Origin: Bacillota bacterium
Lineage (GTDB): Bacteria > Bacillota > Dethiobacteria > Dethiobacterales > Dethiobacteraceae
Reading direction: 5' to 3'
Length of the DNA: 33,458 bases
Assembly: GCA_012522335.1 (NCBI GenBank)
Contig: JAAYKP010000011.1
Coordinates: 1-33,458, forward strand
Shown here piece after piece: positions 16,864 through 25,943 of this stretch. A model generated the notes under the pieces. The model was not told the DNA's origin. It did no database searches and was given only the letters and a program-made list of their open reading frames with translations. How positions within the stretch are numbered: position 1 is the stretch's first letter; every line of letters begins with the position of its first letter. Both the position numbers and the translations under genes were made by a program.

Positions 16864-17778
16864 ATGGGATTATTTAATCGCCTGAAAGCAGGATTACAAA
16901 AAACCCGCAGCAATCTGTTGGGGCGCTTAGGAGAACTGTTCTCCCGTTCCCAGTTTGATGACGACTTTTACGATGAGCTGGAAGAAATACTGATTGGCGC
17001 CGATGTAGGTGTGGAAACGACATTAGAAGTGGTAGAAAAACTGCGGACACAGGTGAAGGCAGCCAAAGTTACTGAAGCTGCACAGGTGATGGAAATTTTA
17101 AAAAAGCAGCTGCTTGAGCTACTGGGAAACGAGCGTAAACCGATTGAGCTGGCTGCCGAAAAGCCGACCGTGATTTTAGTTCTGGGTGTCAACGGAGTAG
17201 GAAAGACCACAACCATTGGTAAGTTGGCGTCACTTTTCCAGGCGCAGGGCAAGAAAGTGATGCTGGCTGCCGGCGATACATTCCGGGCAGCAGCCATTGA
17301 ACAATTGGAAATCTGGGCCTCACGCTCCAAAAGCGAGCTTGTTAAGCACCAGCAGGGTGCCGATCCTTCGGCAGTGCTCTTTGACGGTGTTAATGCGGCC
17401 ATGGCCCGGGGCTGCGATATTCTGCTCTGTGATACGGCCGGACGCCTGCATAATAAAACCAACTTGATGGAGGAATTAAAAAAAGTACTCCGTGTTATCG
17501 GCAAGGCCCTGCCGGGTGCACCCCACGAAATTTTGCTGGTTTTAGATGCCACAACCGGACAGAATGCGCTGGCTCAAGCCAGAGTGTTTAATGAAGTTGC
17601 CCCGCTGACAGGAGTTGTCCTGACCAAACTGGACGGTACGGCCAAAGGTGGCATAGTCATCGCCGTTGCCCGTGAGTTAAAAGTACCGGTAAAATATATC
17701 GGCGTAGGTGAAGGGATAGAAGATCTACAACCTTTTGATCCTGCTGCCTATGTAGACGGGCTGTTGGCTCAGGAATAA
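16864..17778 (+). CDS. ftsY: Signal recognition particle receptor FtsY
   Basis: FtsY is the SRP-receptor GTPase that docks ribosome-nascent-chain-SRP complexes at the membrane. The 304-residue product is the short Gram-positive form with little acidic A-domain. It has the N-domain helices, G1 GVNGVGKTT at residues 108-116, DTFRAAAIEQL at 138-148, G3 DTAGR at 190-194 and G4 TKLD at 254-257, ending in the C-terminal GVGEGIEDLQPFDP helix. Its partner Ffh is also in the window but 8.2 kb away; in most Firmicutes ftsY is followed at once by ylxM-ffh. Confidence 0.96.
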   Translation: MGLFNRLKAGLQKTRSNLLGRLGELFSRSQFDDDFYDELEEILIGADVGVETTLEVVEKLRTQVKAAKVTEAAQVMEILKKQLLELLGNERKPIELAAEKPTVILVLGVNGVGKTTTIGKLASLFQAQGKKVMLAAGDTFRAAAIEQLEIWASRSKSELVKHQQGADPSAVLFDGVNAAMARGCDILLCDTAGRLHNKTNLMEELKKVLRVIGKALPGAPHEILLVLDATTGQNALAQARVFNEVAPLTGVVLTKLDGTAKGGIVIAVARELKVPVKYIGVGEGIEDLQPFDPAAYVDGLLAQE

Positions 17779-17868
17779 GCTTTTTAAAACAACCCCAGCC
17801 TCATTTTCTGCTCACTGCAGTTATTACTGCAGCAGCAAGGCAGTCAAGACAAATTACATTCCACACAA

Positions 17869-17907
17869 AGAAAAAGTGCCGCGACTACAAGATAGGAGCG
17901 GCACTTT
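17869..17907 (-). terminator. Minus-strand terminator of the two-component operon
   Basis: AAAGTGCCGC (17873-17882) and GCGGCACTTT (17898-17907) form a perfect 10-bp stem. Read on the minus strand the stem runs into TTTTTC. It lies 52 bases past the stop of the last minus-strand gene. Upstream on the plus side CTGCAG-TTATTA-CTGCAG (17815-17832) is a weaker hairpin after ftsY. Confidence 0.8.
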
Positions 17908-17958
17908 AGCTGCAATTATGGGGAAAACGCTAAGTATTTATGTTGACGCCGGTGTAAA

Positions 17959-19359
17959 TCAAAGTAAGCTTTGAAAGGTTAGCGTCCAATTTTCTACATA
18001 ATGACCAAGAGCCCATTCGGCCATAATCATTTTTTCCCCCTCCCGCAGAGGAATTTTCAATAAGGGTGTGACAGCCATACTGTGGTGAAACATGGCATAG
18101 ACAATAATCTCGCTGCCGGTAAAAACTAAAGCCAGGTCTTCATTAGGTGAGGTGAGAACATCACTGGCTTGAGGAACATGATTTTTTATCCGCGGCCAGG
18201 GGAGAGCAAGTTCGTTATAGAAAAGAAGATGGCTGGGCGGAATGATGCCTAAGGGGACATCAGACTGATTTGGCAGGCGGCTGACCAGCTGCCAGTAACC
18301 CTTATGGCGGGCCAGGCTGAAATTCTCTTCAGTTAAGCGGTCTGTCTGCAGCTGTTCTGCTTGCTGCTGCAGGTTGATTGTGGGCTCAGCCCTGATCAGG
18401 TCGCTAATTTTCACAGCTCTGATAGCCGGCAAACTATCGACAGATACTGTCAGCAGTCTGCTTGCCTGGTTTGTACTGCCGTCTGCCGCAGCTTGAGCAA
18501 TACTTTCTTCCAGGGAAACAAAATCATTCCCGACATAGGTAATGTGACGTCGGATGGAACCGGTTTTACCCTCCCAAACTGCCGGATCCAGTGTTAATTC
18601 CGGTGCTGCGCTTGTATGGCGTCCGGAAAGTGCAGTGACCAGCAAAAAATCTTCAACTTGTTCTTCCAGGCTTACGGGTACTACTTCCAGTTTATAAAAG
18701 CCGTTTCTGCGAGGGAAAACAATAGTGTCGGTCTGCAGGAGGGGAGCCAGATGTCGATCTTCAGCGGCCAGCCATAGGGTACGATAACGGTTGTCCGGAG
18801 AGCGCAGGCCCAGTAATACTCCTGACTGTAAATTTGCCTGCTGGGGTCCGGTAATATTAGAAATTTCGGTGACTTCCGGAGAGTTAAGGAGAGATTTGTC
18901 TACATGATCCGAGATTTTACGCAGCAGGTAGCTGTTATTAAAAAGCTGTAAAATTAGTTCCTCCTCGTTAAGGGGAAGTAATTCGCATAAGAACAGATGC
19001 TGATCTGCCAAGGTTAAGACCTCCACTTCTTTTTTCCGGGCAAAGAGGTCCTGATAAAAAGCCTGCCTTGTATCAAAATAGCCGGAAACATCAGTTCTTT
19101 TAATCTGGAAGCGGGGGTGGGGTAAGAGATAGCTGCCCAGCAGTACATATTCATCGCTGAAGAGCAGCTTTTTACCGAGCCACTGTTCTGATACAGCAGT
19201 ATTATCCTGTAAGCTGTCGCTTATAACCCAGGTACCTTGCAGAGGAGAGTGACTGTGAGGCGGTACAAGGCGCAGCTTATAGCTGCTGTTGAAGTTGAGA
19301 AAGCCGTAAGTAAAGAAAACGAACAGCAGAAAGAAAGATATTGCTCTTTTTTTAGTCAT
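17959..19359 (-). CDS. Membrane-anchored protein of unknown function, third gene of the two-component operon
   Basis: I do not recognise a named family. The 466-residue protein has a basic start (MTKKR), one transmembrane segment at about residues 6-22, and a large extracytoplasmic part rich in beta-strand-like segments. A block with GTW at 42-44, LGKKLLFS at 61-68 and HPRFQIKRTDVSGYF at 81-95 looks lipocalin-like. A second block has SGVLLGLRS (179-187), YRTLWLA (192-198) and FPRRNGFYKLEV (215-226). The C-terminus has a GEKMIMAEWALGHYVENW segment. The start at 19359 overlaps the kinase stop (ATGACTAA) behind GGAGGAAG, so it is translationally coupled to the kinase. Its position equals that of YycH in walRK operons, which modulates the kinase from outside the membrane. 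That role here is inference. Confidence 0.8.
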   Translation of the reverse strand: MTKKRAISFFLLFVFFTYGFLNFNSSYKLRLVPPHSHSPLQGTWVISDSLQDNTAVSEQWLGKKLLFSDEYVLLGSYLLPHPRFQIKRTDVSGYFDTRQAFYQDLFARKKEVEVLTLADQHLFLCELLPLNEEELILQLFNNSYLLRKISDHVDKSLLNSPEVTEISNITGPQQANLQSGVLLGLRSPDNRYRTLWLAAEDRHLAPLLQTDTIVFPRRNGFYKLEVVPVSLEEQVEDFLLVTALSGRHTSAAPELTLDPAVWEGKTGSIRRHITYVGNDFVSLEESIAQAAADGSTNQASRLLTVSVDSLPAIRAVKISDLIRAEPTINLQQQAEQLQTDRLTEENFSLARHKGYWQLVSRLPNQSDVPLGIIPPSHLLFYNELALPWPRIKNHVPQASDVLTSPNEDLALVFTGSEIIVYAMFHHSMAVTPLLKIPLREGEKMIMAEWALGHYVENWTLTFQSLL

Positions 19360-20737
19360 GAGGCGCTTCCTCCAGCGGTAAGGTGATAGTAATGAGAGTT
19401 CCACGCCCCACCTCACTGGCTATATCCAATGTTCCCTGCATGAGGCGGATAATTTCATCAGCCAAAGAAAGGCCAATACCGTTTTGTGCTTTGCTGGATT
19501 TGCCCTTGAAGAACTTTTCTTTCACATGGGGCAGTTCTTCGGCAGGAATACCGCAGCCGCTGTCCTGCAGGGAAATAGTATAAGTATTCTGGTCGGCAGA
19601 AGTAGTCAGGATGACAGAGCCACCGGAAGGGGTAAATTTAAAGGCGTTATCCAGCAGATTGATCAGCACCTGCTTCAGACGATTGCCGTCTGTATAAAGG
19701 TAGGGTACCCGGTGATCAATCTTTATCTGAAAATCCAGTGCTTCACGGTCGGCGCGCGGTGACAGCTGCAGGTGCAGATGCCCAAGCAGGGTGGGCAAAT
19801 GCACTTTTTCTTTTTTTAGATTGATTTTGCCCGAGACGAATTTAGAGAAATCTAACAGTTCTGTTACCATCTGGGTGAGCCGGTCGCTTTCTTTTTCGAT
19901 AATGGTAAGACCATCCTGCAGCAGTTCTTTATTCTCATAGCCCTGCTGCAGAGTAACTGCCCAGCCTTTAATGGAGGTGAGCGGCGTGCGCAGTTCATGG
20001 GAAACAGAAGAGATAAACTCGTTTTTGAGGGCATCTTTTTTTACTATTTCACCGGCTAAATAGTTCAGCGTGGCAGAGAGTTTATTGATTTCGTCTAATT
20101 TATGGGGAGCACATTTGACGGCAAAGTTGCCGGCAGCCATTACTTCTGCAGCCTTGGTTACTTTGTTTAAAGGCAAAGTGATGGTGTTGGCCAACAAAAA
20201 ACTGACTACACCGGAAAAAAGCATGACAATGCCCCCAAAAGAGAGATATTTATATGCGATCATAAGAATGGCGGCATCAACCTCCCGCAGTGAGGCAATA
20301 AAGCGGAGAACGCCAATTTGCTGCTGCTCCACGGTGAGGGGAATAGAAGCGGCCATCACTCTTTCGCCGGCGCTGCGTCCGATCCAGCTGCCCATTGTAC
20401 CCTGCAGGGCTGCCTCTACATCAGCTGCTGCCGCATCTGTTGCCGTTCCCAGTGAATTCATCAGCACCTGACCATCCATGTTGATAATTTCCACTTGGGC
20501 CGGCACCTGTTTCCAAAAAGTATCAACATTATTCAGGATATTTTCCTCCAGGGTGGCGTCGGCAAAGTAGCGTACATACAGTTCAGCAGAAGTTTGCAGC
20601 TGGCCGGTTAAGGAATCTTCCAGGCTTTGATAATAGTTTTGCCGGATACTGGTGATGAGGAAGAACTCAAAGATAATTACGGTAATAATGATGATGAACA
20701 TAAAGTAAAGCACCATTCTTTGCTTAATACTGCGCAT
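19352..20737 (-). CDS. Sensor histidine kinase (PhoR/WalK type)
   Basis: A 461-residue membrane sensor kinase. Transmembrane helices lie at about residues 9-30 and 160-184 and enclose an extracytoplasmic sensor domain of about 130 residues. A HAMP linker follows (about 185-236), then HisKA with the phospho-acceptor His247 in SSVSHELRTPLTS, and HATPase_c with N-box NLLDNAFKFTPSGG (360-373), G1 DSGCGIP (392-398) and G2 NGIGLSLADEI (419-429). No PAS domain is evident between HAMP and HisKA, unlike full-length WalK. The start overlaps the regulator's end by 14 bases. The signal cannot be read from sequence. Confidence 0.92.
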   Translation of the reverse strand: MRSIKQRMVLYFMFIIIITVIIFEFFLITSIRQNYYQSLEDSLTGQLQTSAELYVRYFADATLEENILNNVDTFWKQVPAQVEIINMDGQVLMNSLGTATDAAAADVEAALQGTMGSWIGRSAGERVMAASIPLTVEQQQIGVLRFIASLREVDAAILMIAYKYLSFGGIVMLFSGVVSFLLANTITLPLNKVTKAAEVMAAGNFAVKCAPHKLDEINKLSATLNYLAGEIVKKDALKNEFISSVSHELRTPLTSIKGWAVTLQQGYENKELLQDGLTIIEKESDRLTQMVTELLDFSKFVSGKINLKKEKVHLPTLLGHLHLQLSPRADREALDFQIKIDHRVPYLYTDGNRLKQVLINLLDNAFKFTPSGGSVILTTSADQNTYTISLQDSGCGIPAEELPHVKEKFFKGKSSKAQNGIGLSLADEIIRLMQGTLDIASEVGRGTLITITLPLEEAPHD

Positions 20738-21431
20738 CGTGCTTAGCTCCTTTTAGTCGGTAACCTACCCCCCAGACTGTCTCAATCCACTGCGGGTCAG
20801 ACGGGTTGTCCTCAATTTTTTCGCGAATGCGGCGAATATGAACATCAACAGTTTTTAGATCGCCAAAATAGTTTTTTCCCCAGATGGCATTGAGAATTTC
20901 ATTTCTGGTAAATGCTTTTTGGGGGTGCTGCATGAACAACTTCATGATGGCAAATTCAGTGGGAGTTAACTCGATCGGCTGTTCCCATTTATAGAAACGC
21001 TGCCCTTGCAGATCCAGCTTTAATTGTTGAAAATGCAAATTACTGCTTTGCCGGGGAAGAAGCTTTAGTTTGCGTAAGTGGGCACGAATGCGTGCGATCA
21101 ACTCCAGAGGGTTAAAAGGTTTAACCATGTAATCGTCGGCACCCAGATCTAAGCCCATCACTTTGTCTAAATCTTCACCCCTGGCGGTCAGCATGATAAT
21201 TACGGCTCGGGGCATCTGGCGGCGAATTTGCAGGCAAACTTCAAAACCATCGATTGTCGGCAGCATGATATCTAAAATTACTACTTCAGGGGAGGCTGTA
21301 TTCACAATGGCCAGGGCAGTCTCCCCATCTGCTGCTTCTAAAACTTCAAAGCCATTTCTATGTAAATTGATAGCAATAAATTTACGGATGGAAAGCTCAT
21401 CTTCAACTACTAACACTTTGCAGGCAGTCAT
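20724..21431 (-). CDS. OmpR-family response regulator (PhoP/WalR type)
   Basis: A 235-residue transcription regulator. The receiver domain (residues 3-118) holds the acidic pair E10-D11, phospho-acceptor Asp54 in VVILDIMLP, Thr82 and Lys104 in MVKPF. The DNA-binding winged helix (about 135-232) ends with the recognition segment LKTVDVHIRRIREKIEDNPSDP and VWGVGYRLKG, closest by eye to the PhoP/WalR group. SD GAGGGGG precedes the ATG. Because PhoP and WalR are much alike, no name is given. An array of TTTACG-like repeats at 10-11 bp spacing upstream is the sort of site such a dimeric regulator binds, which suggests autoregulation. Confidence 0.93.
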   Translation of the reverse strand: MTACKVLVVEDELSIRKFIAINLHRNGFEVLEAADGETALAIVNTASPEVVILDIMLPTIDGFEVCLQIRRQMPRAVIIMLTARGEDLDKVMGLDLGADDYMVKPFNPLELIARIRAHLRKLKLLPRQSSNLHFQQLKLDLQGQRFYKWEQPIELTPTEFAIMKLFMQHPQKAFTRNEILNAIWGKNYFGDLKTVDVHIRRIREKIEDNPSDPQWIETVWGVGYRLKGAKHDAQY

Positions 21432-21517
21432 GAACTAACCCCCTCGTTATATTTTCATCTCCTATTTTACTATAAAGCAGAGGGCTTGTTGGGGGTTAAT
21501 TCCTGGCAAAAGAAAAC

Positions 21518-21566
21518 TGTAACCTTTTCGTAAACAATCTTAAAGGTTTCGTAAATCCTTGTTTAA
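21518..21566 (-). promoter_or_regulatory. PhoP/OmpR-type direct-repeat array
   Basis: On the minus strand the hexamers TTAAAC (from 21566), TTTACG (21555), TTTAAG (21544), TTTACG (21534) and GTTACA (21523) follow one another at 11, 11, 10 and 11 bases. The core 9-mer TTTACGAAA occurs twice exactly, 21 bases apart. This is the layout known for PhoP-group regulators (TTAACA-like repeats, one per helical turn). It lies between the divergent regulator gene and the SGNH gene and could act on both. Confidence 0.6.
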
Positions 21567-21576
21567 GTCAAACAGT

Positions 21577-21582
21577 TACAAT
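21577..21582 (+). promoter_or_regulatory. Probable -10 element of the acylation operon
   Basis: TACAAT matches the -10 consensus at five of six positions, and transcription would start about 19 bases before the ATG at 21608. No -35 element is present 17 bases upstream (AATCCT). Instead the repeat array ends about ten bases upstream, as expected of an activator-dependent promoter. Confidence 0.45.
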
Positions 21583-21607
21583 AATTAGCGGAAAGTAGGT
21601 GTATATA

Positions 21608-22417
21608 ATGTCTAAACGGGGATCATGGCAAGTCTTTGGCTTAATGGCTCTGACCCTTTGCCTGCTGCTTGGCTGGTTATACTATCTTTCCTGCTTTACC
21701 CGGGAACAGGCAGGGACACAAAATGCTGAAAAAGGTCCATCCGGGGTAGCGGCAGCCGCAGACCAGCGGCATACTGCTGTGTATGATTACAGTAAGCCTG
21801 TACCGGCAGCGGAAGGCACCATCGCTGCTGATTACTTTCAGGACGCTGTGTTTATCGGTGACTCCCGGACAACCGGACTGCAGTTATTTGGTGGTCCGCC
21901 CGAAGCCGTTTACTATACTGCTGCCGGTCTGAAAGTAGATACCGTTTTGACAAAGCCGGTAGTGACGGCCGGTGAGCAAAAGATCACCATCATGGAGGCG
22001 CTGCGGCAGCATAAATTTGGCAAGATTTATATTATGCTCGGTGTGAATGAACTGGGCTGGGCATACAGCGAGTTGTTTATTCAGACTTACGGTGAAGTTA
22101 TTGCCGAAATAAAAGAAATAGCGCCGCAGGCTATTATCTACGTGCAGTCAATCCTGCCGGTTACTAAGGAAAAGTCCCTGACGGATAAAATTTACAACCA
22201 GCAAAACATTAATAAATATAACGAGCTGATTCGTAAAATGGCTGCAGAACAGCAGGTTTATTATCTTGATGCTGCTGCCGCTGTTCAAGATGATGAAGGC
22301 TATCTACCTGCCGAGGCAGCGACAGATGGAATTCACCTCAAACCGGCTTACTGCCGGCAGTGGTTTGAATATTTACAGCAGCACTATATAACAGGAGGGG
22401 TAGTTAATGAGGCTTAG
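21608..22417 (+). CDS. SGNH/GDSL-family hydrolase, membrane-anchored
   Basis: A 269-residue protein with an N-terminal membrane anchor (about residues 9-27) and an extracytoplasmic SGNH esterase/acyltransferase fold. Block I is FIGDSRT with Ser86, block III is GVNE with Asn147, and block V is DGIHL with Asp240 and His243; all four expected catalytic residues are present. ATG 21608 with AGTAGGTG at seven bases is preferred over GTG 21599. As first gene of a cassette with an MBOAT protein and a DHHW protein, it probably transfers or removes acyl groups on an exported polymer. Direction and substrate are not shown by sequence. It overlaps the next gene by 11 bases. Confidence 0.87.
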   Translation: MSKRGSWQVFGLMALTLCLLLGWLYYLSCFTREQAGTQNAEKGPSGVAAAADQRHTAVYDYSKPVPAAEGTIAADYFQDAVFIGDSRTTGLQLFGGPPEAVYYTAAGLKVDTVLTKPVVTAGEQKITIMEALRQHKFGKIYIMLGVNELGWAYSELFIQTYGEVIAEIKEIAPQAIIYVQSILPVTKEKSLTDKIYNQQNINKYNELIRKMAAEQQVYYLDAAAAVQDDEGYLPAEAATDGIHLKPAYCRQWFEYLQQHYITGGVVNEA

Positions 22418-22889
22418 AAAAATGAGGTTTTTGGGGCTGCTGATGATTATCCTGCTGCTGAGCGGCTGCAGACAACAAAGCAGCTATGATCTGCAGGCAG
22501 CAGAATGTGCGGCGGTACTGGCAGAAAAAATTCCTTTTGCTGATACTTTAAGTCCCCTGAGTAAAGAAATGGGCCTGGTGCTTTATCCGGTGGCTGCAGA
22601 AGATGTGGCAGAGCATAGTATTTATGTCAGTACCGGTGCCACAGCCGAGGAAATTGCCGTTTTTGCAGCCGTTGACTCAGAGGCTGCCGAGCGGGTAAAA
22701 AGCGCAGTTTTGCAGCGTGTGGAAGAACAAAAAGCAAGTTATGCTGCTTACCGGCCGGCAGAGCTGCCGAAACTGGAGGAACCATATTTGCAGGTTGCTG
22801 GATCCCATGTGATTTTTTGTGTTTCAGATCACAATGATCAGGTTAACAAAATTGTGGAACAGCTGCTGTATGGCAAGGAAGAAAGGTAA
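22407..22889 (+). CDS. DUF4358-type lipoprotein
   Basis: A 160-residue lipoprotein. A basic start is followed by a hydrophobic stretch and lipobox LLSGC (Cys21), so it should be cut by signal peptidase II and held on the outer face of the membrane. The rest has the pattern of DUF4358 proteins (VLAEKIPFADTL, VYPVAAEDVAE-like and IAVFAAVDSEAAERVKSAV segments), a family of unknown function often found beside SGNH, MBOAT and DHHW genes. SD AGGAGGGG lies seven bases before the ATG. Tight overlap with the SGNH gene implies joint function, perhaps as a periplasm-side partner of the acyl transfer machinery. Confidence 0.82.
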   Translation: MRLRKMRFLGLLMIILLLSGCRQQSSYDLQAAECAAVLAEKIPFADTLSPLSKEMGLVLYPVAAEDVAEHSIYVSTGATAEEIAVFAAVDSEAAERVKSAVLQRVEEQKASYAAYRPAELPKLEEPYLQVAGSHVIFCVSDHNDQVNKIVEQLLYGKEER

Positions 22890-22894
22890 GCGGC

Positions 22895-24298
22895 ATGATC
22901 TTTAGCAGTCTTTTTTTTCTCTTTCTCTTTTTACCGCTGGCTTTGCTATGCTATTATTTGCTGCCGCACAATTGGCGCAACGGAGTTTTATTTGCCGCCA
23001 GTTTACTTTTTTACGCCTGGGGAGAACCCGTCTATATCTGGCTGATGTTATTTTCTATTTTTATTAATTACCTGTACGGTCTGCTGCTGGCCAGATATGA
23101 AAAACAACAGCAGGTAGCGAAAAATATTCTGCTTTCTGCTGCAGCTGTCAATATCGCTTTGCTTTGTTTCTTTAAATATGCTGACCTGCTGTTACAAAGC
23201 ATTAATTTCGTCTGTGATACAGAGCTGCAGGCGTTAAACCTGCCCCTGCCGGTAGGCATATCTTTTTACACTTTTCAGGCGATGTCATATTTAATCGACC
23301 TCTACCGGGGTGAGGTGGCTGTGCAGCGCAATCTGCTGTCCTTTGGTACCTATGTCGCGCTTTTCCCCCAGTTAATTGCCGGACCGATTGTACGTTACCA
23401 AACGGTGGCGGACCAGCTCAGGCAGCGTAAAGAAGACATTAACAGCTACGGTTATGGTGTGAGCAGGTTTGTGCTTGGTTTGGCGAAAAAAGTGCTGCTG
23501 GCTAATAATCTCGGCTTACTGTGGCAGGAAGTACAGCAGCTGCCGGCAGGGGAACTGGCGACTATCACGGCCTGGTTGGGCATGATAGCCTTTGCCTTAC
23601 AGCTTTACTACGACTTCAGCGGCTATTCAGATATGGCCGTTGGTTTAGGGCGGATGTTTGGTTTTACTTTTTTGGAGAATTTTAATTATCCTTATATCTC
23701 ACAAAGCATTACGGAATTTTGGCGCCGCTGGCATATTTCCCTGGGCAGTTGGTTTCGCGAATACGTATATATTCCCCTGGGCGGCAGCCGCGTTAGTCCC
23801 CTGCTTATGTACCGCAACCTGCTTGTTGTCTGGTGCTTAACGGGATTATGGCATGGTGCCAGCTGGAATTTTGTGCTGTGGGGGCTTTATTTTGGCCTGC
23901 TTTTGGCCTTGGAGAAGGCCTTTTTACAGCGCTGGCTGGAACTGCTGCCTCGTCTTTTCCGACATCTTTATGCCCTTGTTTTAATCCTTTTCGGTTGGGT
24001 CTTATTTGTGTTTAGTGATTTATCTCAGGCCTGGCAGTATTGGCAGGCGCTGCTTGCCCTTAATCACAGCAGTTGGCTGGATCAGCAGACGCTGTACCTG
24101 GTTACCAATTATGCCTTACTGCTGCTCCTTGCCGGGCTAGCAGCCGTACCCTGGTGGGAGAAAATTGCGGTAAAAAAACAGCGAAATAAACAGGCCTGCT
24201 ATTATGCAGCGGCTGCAGCCCATCTACTGCTGTTAATCCTCAGCACTGCTTATTTAGTTGATTCTACTTATAACCCATTTTTGTACTTTCGTTTTTAG
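22895..24298 (+). CDS. MBOAT-family membrane O-acyltransferase (AlgI/DltB type)
   Basis: A 467-residue multi-pass protein that passes acyl groups, usually acetyl, from a cytoplasmic donor across the membrane for transfer to a polymer. The MBOAT marks are QLIAGPIVRY near residues 159-168, YYDFSGYSDMAVGLGRMFGF at 238-257, FWRRWHISLGSWFREYVYIPLGGSR at 275-298 in pieces, and the catalytic His320 in GLWHGASWNFVLWG. It is closest in kind to AlgI (alginate) and PatA (peptidoglycan). It starts five bases after the lipoprotein gene and is followed by the DHHW gene, which is the usual periplasmic partner. The polymer acted on is not identifiable. Confidence 0.93.
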   Translation: MIFSSLFFLFLFLPLALLCYYLLPHNWRNGVLFAASLLFYAWGEPVYIWLMLFSIFINYLYGLLLARYEKQQQVAKNILLSAAAVNIALLCFFKYADLLLQSINFVCDTELQALNLPLPVGISFYTFQAMSYLIDLYRGEVAVQRNLLSFGTYVALFPQLIAGPIVRYQTVADQLRQRKEDINSYGYGVSRFVLGLAKKVLLANNLGLLWQEVQQLPAGELATITAWLGMIAFALQLYYDFSGYSDMAVGLGRMFGFTFLENFNYPYISQSITEFWRRWHISLGSWFREYVYIPLGGSRVSPLLMYRNLLVVWCLTGLWHGASWNFVLWGLYFGLLLALEKAFLQRWLELLPRLFRHLYALVLILFGWVLFVFSDLSQAWQYWQALLALNHSSWLDQQTLYLVTNYALLLLLAGLAAVPWWEKIAVKKQRNKQACYYAAAAAHLLLLILSTAYLVDSTYNPFLYFRF

Positions 24299-24309
24299 AT
24301 AGGGGAGAT

Positions 24310-25431
24310 ATGGTGCAGGGCTATCATAAAGCTTTGACTGTTTTACTAATTGTGTATATAGGCATTTTCTGCTTTCTGTTTTTCGCCCTTCCTGAACGTT
24401 CTTTTTCTGCGGCAGAAAACAGGTTTCTGCAAACCAGACCCGTTTTGAGCCGGCAGAAGCTGCTGTCCGGTCAGTTCAGCCAAGCGGCTGAAAAGTACCT
24501 TGCCGATCAATTTGTCCTGCGTGATAGCTGGATCAGGCTGAAAGCATGTTTTGAACTGCTGCTGCAAAAAATGGATCATCGCGGCGTTTACTTTGGCCGG
24601 GACGGTTATTTGCTGCAAAAACCGCAGCGCCGGGAAAAAGAACAGCTGGAACAAAATATCAGTGCCGTAAGTAACTTTGCCCAACAGGCCGGGAAGAGTG
24701 TTTATTTTTTGCTGGCACCTGTCTCAGCACAGATTTTGCGAGAGAAATTACCGCGCTATGCCGTTCCACCAATTGTTGAGCCTTCAGCAGTCAGGGAAGA
24801 AATGACTGCAGATATTATTTTTGTCGATCCTTCCGCACTGCTGTGTGCGCACAAACAGGAAAATATTTACTATAAAACAGACCACCACTGGACAAGCCGG
24901 GGTGCTTATTATGCATACCAGGAGTTAGGTAAAGCTATGGGGTTTAAAGCACTGCCAGAAGATTCTTTTGTGATAAAACAGGTGAGTGACAACTTTTACG
25001 GCAGTCTTGCCTCACAAAGCGGTTACCGCTGCCAACCGGATAACCTGCAGCTGTTTTTACCTAAAGTAAAGCTGCCGTATACAGTTGAATATGTGTACCG
25101 GCAGAAAACAAGCACTACTGTGTATGCCTGGGAGCATTTACGGCAAAAGGATCAGTATGCAGTATTTCTCGATGGCAACCACGCTCTGATTAAAATTACG
25201 ACAGAAAACCAAACAGGAAGGAGGCTGCTGGTTGTTAAGGATTCTTATGCCAATGCCCTGGTACCCTTTTTAATTCCTCATTTTTCTGAAATCCATCTGC
25301 TTGATCTGCGCTATTTTCATCATCAGGTTAAGGACTATCTGCTGCAGAACGAAATGACGGAAATTCTGTTTGTCTACAACACCATTACTTTTGCTGAAGA
25401 AACGTCTTTACGCAAATTAAGCAGCAGATAA
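24310..25431 (+). CDS. DHHW-family (AlgJ/AlgX-like) acyltransfer protein
   Basis: A 373-residue protein with an N-terminal membrane anchor (about residues 8-27) and an SGNH-like extracytoplasmic domain. The eponymous DHHW is at 191-194 in YKTDHHWTSRGAYYAYQELG, and VVKDSYANALVPFL holds the probable nucleophile Ser312. The preceding GVYFGRDGYLLQKP segment is typical of the AlgJ/AlgX group, which takes acetyl groups from an MBOAT partner and places them on the polymer. The ribosome site AGGGGAG is close to the first ATG; GTG 24313 is an alternative. It is the last gene of the cassette, followed by a terminator. Confidence 0.9.
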   Translation: MVQGYHKALTVLLIVYIGIFCFLFFALPERSFSAAENRFLQTRPVLSRQKLLSGQFSQAAEKYLADQFVLRDSWIRLKACFELLLQKMDHRGVYFGRDGYLLQKPQRREKEQLEQNISAVSNFAQQAGKSVYFLLAPVSAQILREKLPRYAVPPIVEPSAVREEMTADIIFVDPSALLCAHKQENIYYKTDHHWTSRGAYYAYQELGKAMGFKALPEDSFVIKQVSDNFYGSLASQSGYRCQPDNLQLFLPKVKLPYTVEYVYRQKTSTTVYAWEHLRQKDQYAVFLDGNHALIKITTENQTGRRLLVVKDSYANALVPFLIPHFSEIHLLDLRYFHHQVKDYLLQNEMTEILFVYNTITFAEETSLRKLSSR

Positions 25432-25457
25432 AAATAATCCGCAGGCTGCCGGCCCGA

Positions 25458-25488
25458 TAAAAAGACGCATCTCTAAATGCGTTTTTTT
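25458..25488 (+). terminator. Terminator after the acylation cassette
   Basis: ACGCAT / ATGCGT with a CTCTAA loop, preceded by AAAAAG and followed by seven T residues. It closes the accessory block 27 bases past the DHHW stop. Confidence 0.85.
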
Positions 25489-25530
25489 ACTGTCCAGGCA
25501 ACAGGTTTAGGTAAAAAAACAGCGCAGATC

Positions 25531-25559
25531 TTGCATGGTCAGTGTATTTTCGTTATAAT
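25531..25559 (+). promoter_or_regulatory. Promoter for ylxM-ffh
   Basis: TATAAT (25554-25559) with TTGCAT (25531-25536) 17 bases upstream. The -10 is perfect, the -35 weak. It directly adjoins an inverted repeat (25561-25590) that covers the likely start point. Confidence 0.7.
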
Positions 25560-25560
25560 C

Positions 25561-25590
25561 ATCCTGTAAAGTATTTTTGCTTTACAGGAT
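25561..25590 (+). promoter_or_regulatory. Perfect 11-bp inverted repeat at the ylxM transcription start
   Basis: ATCCTGTAAAG (25561-25571) and CTTTACAGGAT (25580-25590) are exact complements around the 8-base TATTTTTG. It begins two bases after the -10 element and ends 17 bases before the ylxM ATG. It could be a DNA operator or, if transcribed from about 25566, a shortened leader hairpin near the ribosome site. Confidence 0.55.
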
Positions 25591-25607
25591 TGATGGGATG
25601 TGGTACA

Positions 25608-25943
25608 ATGCTTGAGGACACAACACGAATCAACTTACTATATGATTTCTATGGCAATCTGCTGACAGAAAAACAGCGTGAATACCTGGAGCTCTACTAT
25701 CAGGATGATTTGAGCCTGGGTGAGATAGCTGATAATGACGGCATTTCACGTCAGGGAGTGCACGATCTGGTGAAACGGGCAGTGCGCGCTTTAGAGAATG
25801 CTGAAGAACGTCTAGGTTTAGTGGCTCGTTTTCTGGTCCAGGAAAAAGAACTGCAGCGTTTACGTGATTTACTAAGCAGCAGTGAGATGCCGGAGGACGC
25901 CCGCCGGGAAGCGCTGAACATAGTGGAGAGGTTAATGGAATAA
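25608..25943 (+). CDS. ylxM: YlxM/p13-family SRP-associated DNA-binding-like protein
   Basis: A 111-residue helix-turn-helix protein of the UPF0122 family, resembling sigma-factor region 4, always near ffh. In some streptococci it affects SRP function. Visible features are INLLYDFYGNLLTEKQREYLELYYQDD in pieces, the HTH at LSLGEIADNDGISRQGVHDLVKR (residues about 39-61), then a leucine- and arginine-rich C-terminal helix. An in-frame start 66 bases upstream lies in the promoter, so ATG 25608 is used. The SD is weak (GGGATG). Spacing to ffh is 20 bases. Confidence 0.9.
   Translation: MLEDTTRINLLYDFYGNLLTEKQREYLELYYQDDLSLGEIADNDGISRQGVHDLVKRAVRALENAEERLGLVARFLVQEKELQRLRDLLSSSEMPEDARREALNIVERLME

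Follow-up and report, generated by a model that had tools for sequence, protein, structure and literature searches.

The seven genes that lie between ftsY and ylxM in this window, a 33-kb contig (33,458 nucleotides) of a 2.0-Mb genome assembled in 169 contigs (G000), raise the question of whether a two-component system and a neighbouring set of acylation enzymes form a single circuit. We consider it quite probable, from gene order, conserved motifs and a shared putative operator, that the block is one regulatory unit, in which a dedicated two-component system of WalRK/MtrAB-like type controls the O-acylation of an envelope polymer, and in which the acylation enzymes themselves have been exchanged.

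Open reading frame calls and Pfam matches resolve the interval from ftsY (16864-17778, the left flank) to ylxM (25542-25943, the right flank, followed by ffh) into two divergent and tightly packed operons, and they bear out the gene order given by a first-pass annotation, namely a regulator, a kinase and a third protein on the minus strand and SGNH, DUF4358, MBOAT and DHHW genes on the plus strand. We refer to the response regulator as RR, the sensor kinase as HK, the third gene as UNK and the two-component system as the TCS. On the minus strand, RR (20724..21431) encodes an OmpR/PhoB-type response regulator with receiver and Trans_reg_C domains, HK (19352..20737) a sensor histidine kinase with HAMP, HisKA and HATPase domains and no PAS, and UNK (17959..19359) an anchored extracytoplasmic protein of 466 amino acids; RR and HK overlap by 14 nt, and HK and UNK by 8 nt once the start of UNK is corrected from the listed ORF start at 19416 to the ATG at 19359. 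The plus-strand operon consists of a membrane-anchored SGNH/GDSL esterase-type protein (21599..22417; Lipase_GDSL_2, PF13472, 5e-20; GDS, GVNE and DGIH motifs), a DUF4358 lipoprotein predicted to be an accessory factor (22407..22889; PF14270, 9e-20), a PatA/AlgI-like MBOAT acyltransferase (22895..24298; PF03062, 3e-24) and a PatB1-like SGNH O-acyltransferase of the DHHW family (24310..25431; PF14286, 3e-27), separated successively by an 11-nt overlap and by gaps of 5 and 11 nt. The terminators that had been placed at both ends of the block were recovered by folding, with z scores of -6.3 to -7.0: a bidirectional terminator-like hairpin with a 10-bp stem (17873..17907, both strands; z -6.3 on the minus and -7.0 on the plus strand) closes the minus arm, and a plus-strand hairpin with a 13-bp stem that includes U-tract pairs (25458..25489; z -6.8) closes the plus arm, its end being corrected to near 25489 from 25530. 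Consensus promoter and terminator scans were at background level, and listed neither the operator described below nor the two closing terminators as such.

The site of the block is incidental, since the ftsY-ylxM junction is empty in 14 of the 16 relatives with a visible junction when the smc-ftsY-ylxM-ffh region is read within the family (G011 gave no match to ylxM). A peptide/nickel-type ABC transporter operon is inserted at the junction in G014 (L029:3765-8727), and one minus-strand gene in G001. The junction simply tolerates inserts, and no meaning attaches to the position as such.

Six genomes from two families carry the complete set of seven genes as one uninterrupted block with an unchanged divergent order (G000 and G013, together with G053, G054, G055 and G058, which represent a second family of the class), and the blocks sit at differing chromosomal sites; in G013 the complete block is on another contig than ffh. 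Further loci are partial: in G059 the block runs to the contig end and UNK is degraded, in G015 the TCS faces SGNH and DUF4358 with MBOAT and DHHW about 19 kb away, in G002 contig ends break a locus whose arrangement is compatible with contiguity, and in G001, a genome 90% complete, the cassette is present without UNK or a comparable RR. SGNH faces RR in all eight class loci that have assembled sequence beyond RR. The first-pass annotation had taken the two arms to belong together, and a check of their co-occurrence, which found the seven genes together in six genomes, did not refute this. Of 30 DUF4358 loci read across Bacillota (L159-L188), most have an SGNH gene, an MBOAT gene or both next to DUF4358, and most lack the RR-HK-UNK TCS, which makes it probable that the cassette is the older of the two, a module in its own right that was taken over by this TCS. 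The same 30 neighbourhoods point to an accessory role for DUF4358 in polymer acylation. We note that G000 also encodes a second, diverged MBOAT-DHHW pair at C78 (L023:4288-6857; 49% and 29% identical) that lacks SGNH, DUF4358 and TCS, and that similar pairs are present in six other genomes of the family.

The minus arm has a wider distribution of its own. A profile search with UNK gave matches in 24 of 399 Bacillota genomes, with RR-HK-UNK present in Clostridium ihumii and in Tissierellia and Clostridiales MAGs, and at every Bacillota neighbourhood read UNK comes after an RR and an HK, which are 41-74% identical to those of the window. Directly upstream of RR, six genomes from four families, all outside the window's class (G282, G256, G210, G414, G381 and G398), carry an AT3 acyltransferase with a C-terminal SGNH domain, which is the architecture of OatA (PF01757 at E about 1e-30 to 1e-34, with SGNH motifs present). 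A polysaccharide deacetylase takes this place at three further loci (L052, L054 and L125), and a VanY-type carboxypeptidase gene follows UNK in G013, with a similar gene at the same position in G012. The neighbours of RR-HK-UNK are thus repeatedly wall-modifying enzymes, and none was recognised directly upstream of RR at L118, L119, L122, L127, L128, L053 and L055. Several Clostridium-type loci (L053, L055, L127 and L128) have neither an acyltransferase nor a full operator, and the TCS is therefore not universally about acylation. At the G210 locus (L123:14604-16982), SGNH and MBOAT genes and a DHHW fragment of 110 amino acids lie directly upstream of AT3-RR-HK-UNK, such that both acylation machines are found together, one of them apparently decaying.

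UNK itself matches nothing in Pfam, NCBIfam or PDB sequences, and no relatives were found among viral contigs. It is anchored by an N-terminal transmembrane segment in the window and by a lipobox in many relatives. A structural model built from 15 sequences is mostly beta (pLDDT 78, an earlier model from six sequences having been poor at pLDDT 58) and has no confident match among PDB folds; 3cyg was returned with probability 1.0 but a TM score of 0.36, RsiV-lysozyme (5jen) scored 0.26 and propellers about 0.2, and in view of such weak matches we do not assign UNK a propeller or an RsiV-like fold. The window HK has a short extracytoplasmic domain with a weak Cache-like match, and its orthologue in the AT3 lineage matches Cache_WalK weakly (E 0.001).

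What ties the two arms together is the DNA between them. Comparison of the RR-SGNH intergenic regions revealed one strongly conserved stretch, TGTAAC-N5-YGTAAC-N4/5-TTAA...YGTAAA, which in the window forms the putative operator array TGTAACCTTTTCGTAAACAATCTTAAAGGTTTCGTAAA (21518..21555, plus strand), in which four half-sites recur at intervals of about 11 bp, the spacing to be expected of tandem OmpR/PhoB-type dimers. It is conserved in eight of eight class promoters and in the split MBOAT promoter of G015, a genome that has one operator copy before SGNH and another before the detached MBOAT. The window array is the only full, mismatch-free operator match in G000, and a 38-nt operator pattern allowing up to three mismatches has four matches across 20 family genomes, all of them at this cassette, with no match to a reversed control in the same genomes; since these sites served to define the pattern, its zero mismatches are so by construction, and its absence elsewhere is still informative. 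In G001, in which no TCS was seen, the aligned promoter keeps the -10 region and the half-sites are gone, this being a single genome at 90% completeness. When a wider regulon was sought, the operator pattern with one mismatch matched about as often as its reversed control, and only exact extra sites were kept as leads; these copies of the operator core, in UNK-bearing genomes (L138:1501, L131:1501 and L129:1501), precede lipoprotein genes and another RR-HK pair.

A weight matrix built solely from the nine class sites was then run on the loci of other families. At each of the six AT3 loci its highest-scoring site immediately precedes AT3 (25.8-45.7 bits), and in G213, G078 and G113 it lies upstream of RR (25.4-32.6 bits), as compared with at most 9.1 for the next-best site at the same locus, 11.1 for the best of 19 control loci and a maximum of 23.3 over 900 shuffles. 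The separate DUF4358-MBOAT cassettes of G210, G213 and G078 have no operator among the sites listed. Every one of the 17 operator promoters compared has a TAnnnT hexamer, which in the window is the -10 hexamer TACAAT of the cassette promoter (21577..21582, plus strand), with its first base exactly 27 nt beyond that of the fourth and last half-site (background 1.7%), and that half-site overlaps the expected -35 position, where no -35 box is recognisable. The spacing of the putative operator and the predicted -10 is the geometry of an activated promoter. The sites share ancestry, so that the 17 promoters are not independent inventions; they show selective retention across deep divergence and across exchange of the downstream gene. 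In most class promoters, and in that of G001, the stretch from the last half-site to the -10 also contains TGTCGAA, the sequence of a Spo0A box (loci L015, L080, L082, L083, L086 and L020); this element is degenerate in the window (TGTTTAA, 21560-21566) and absent in G059, and may provide another regulatory input or serve as a fifth half-site.

The MBOAT protein has the catalytic WHG histidine and a C-terminal FLYFRF, which fits FXYXXF, and both are invariant among the block orthologues; in PatA, the tyrosine of this FXYXXF acyl-shuttle motif carries acetyl (PMC12148441). The DHHW protein matches Bacillus cereus PatB1 (5v8d, E 7e-27) and keeps the Ser, DXRY and DHHW blocks as KDSYANA, DLRY and TDHHW (cf. 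PMC9487903). By these motifs the two proteins carry the residues needed for acyl transfer, and have the features of an MBOAT-SGNH pair, with histidine and FXYXXF in the one and Ser, DXRY and DHHW in its partner. DltB, of teichoic acid D-alanylation, was considered as an identity for the MBOAT protein and rejected, with 151 bits against a cut-off of 375 and neither dltA nor dltC in the operon. MBOAT-SGNH pairs and AT3-SGNH proteins are two bacterial routes to the acylation of envelope polymers (PMC9487903), and one predicted regulator with its putative operator is linked to both. The first-pass proposal of a self-contained acylation unit gains from the linkage in six genomes, from the operator that ties regulator to cassette and from the MBOAT and DHHW residues; it has to be tempered in that the TCS and the cassette are each found alone too, outside this lineage.

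It could be supposed that the TCS is simply the organism's own WalRK or MtrAB-LpqB, with the cassette as part of a large wall regulon. WalK is the best-scoring match for HK, RR falls near YycF and PhoB, two half-sites fit the WalR box TGTWAH-N5-TGTWAH (exactly in the SGNH promoters of G055, G053, G058 and G059 and the MBOAT promoter of G015, with one mismatch in the window), and the wal locus of Clostridium difficile includes a gene for a lipoprotein and encodes a WalK that lacks PAS (PMC9210968). Because HK is most like WalK, WalRK identity was tested, and it was rejected: RR scores 232 of the 340 needed with the YycF model and HK 249 of 725, and a canonical WalRK-YycH-YycI operon lies separately at G000:C119 (RR 334.5 and HK 576 bits; YycH and YycI by Pfam). 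Identity with MtrAB-LpqB was rejected likewise, given an RR score of 226 of 300, an UNK without a Pfam domain and a better candidate at G000:C40 (L090:3998-8252), where an MtrA-like RR, an HK and a lipoprotein with Germane and beta-propeller domains occur in a row. We note that this is an actinobacterial MtrAB-LpqB architecture inside a Bacillota genome. With separate WalRK-YycHI and MtrAB-LpqB-like operons in G000, the TCS of the block is a third system and the supposition is largely refuted; it is also at odds with the single occurrence of the full operator in that genome, and we regard it as very improbable.

A PhoPR-type phosphate-starvation system that alters wall polymers at low phosphate is unlikely, although the best NCBIfam score of RR is to PhoB (233 of 296 needed), PnpS is second-best after WalK for HK (200 of 400 needed), and PhoB/PhoP boxes are 11-bp direct repeats too; against this, no pst or phoU was recognised beside any RR-HK-UNK locus read, and G000 has but one full operator. 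Least credible is the notion that two unrelated operons happen to lie together, or form a passive gene island, without a regulatory link. The ftsY-ylxM junction does take other inserts, as the ABC transporter of G014 and the single gene of G001 attest, and each arm occurs alone elsewhere, but the same divergent order recurs at differing sites in six genomes of two families, and the operator is conserved, moves with MBOAT and is common to the AT3-SGNH promoters of other families.

Under the reading that we prefer, that of a dedicated TCS controlling envelope acylation, HK and the anchored UNK would monitor some envelope state, as their topology suggests, and HK would phosphorylate RR, with UNK presumably a modulator of HK. 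Binding of RR to the four-half-site array at 21518-21555, over the -35 region, and activation of SGNH-DUF4358-MBOAT-DHHW are strongly suggested by the operator and promoter geometry, from which we infer activation rather than repression. MBOAT would charge the tyrosine in its C-terminal FLYFRF with an acyl group (probably acetyl, donated by acetyl-CoA), and DHHW would accept the group on its serine and pass it to an extracellular wall polymer, a relay that we infer from motifs conserved with characterised relatives. As accessory proteins, the SGNH esterase and the lipoprotein DUF4358 may adjust or assist, AlgF and an esterase being analogies only. The substrate is presumably the wall, and peptidoglycan or an attached glycan is favoured by the recurrence of OatA-like, deacetylase and VanY-like alternatives at the same place. 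Since the same TCS and operator precede AT3-SGNH in other families, it would appear that the circuit has been conserved and the enzyme exchanged. We give about even chances to a broader proposal, in which RR-HK with UNK and its own four-half-site operator constitute a third, previously undescribed branch of WalRK/MtrAB-like envelope systems in Bacillota, dedicated to wall-polymer modification, with the enzyme swapped between MBOAT-DHHW and AT3-SGNH and a deacetylase there in some lineages, and with UNK sensing either the polymer, in its modified or its unmodified form, or an enzyme that cuts the wall.

The timing of Gram-positive wall O-acylation is poorly known outside a few pathogens, and among CC-licensed PMC papers we found none in which a TCS is tied to MBOAT-SGNH or AT3-SGNH. 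The locus offers a specific candidate regulator, a base-level definition of its putative operator and a promoter layout common to two unrelated acylation machines, and this makes the question testable in cultivated, non-pathogenic Bacillota. It also provides a functional context for two uncharacterised families, DUF4358, named in a single paper of the literature searched, and UNK, the latter without a family name.

Among known systems, the window cassette resembles PatA1/PatB1 (of Bacillus cereus SCWP O-acetylation), AlgI/AlgJ-AlgX and CcsH/CcsI in having an MBOAT-SGNH pair with shared catalytic blocks (PMC9487903, PMC12148441, PMC7710045); it differs from them in the added SGNH protein and DUF4358 lipoprotein, in the absence of adjoining polymer-synthesis genes and in its dedicated divergent TCS. 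The link to OatA is that the same TCS and operator in other Bacillota precede an AT3-SGNH protein of OatA architecture, in whose place the window lineage has SGNH-DUF4358-MBOAT-DHHW. With WalRK (YycFG) the TCS shares an OmpR-type RR, a WalK-like kinase, predicted wall targets and a direct-repeat operator near TGTWAH-N5-TGTWAH, but it lacks PAS, YycH and YycI, and its third gene is UNK. MtrAB-LpqB and the walA-walR-walK genes of C. difficile likewise combine an RR-HK pair with a lipoprotein and have a kinase without PAS (PMC9210968), whereas UNK, in contrast to the lipoprotein of MtrAB-LpqB, has no GerMN or recognisable propeller domain.
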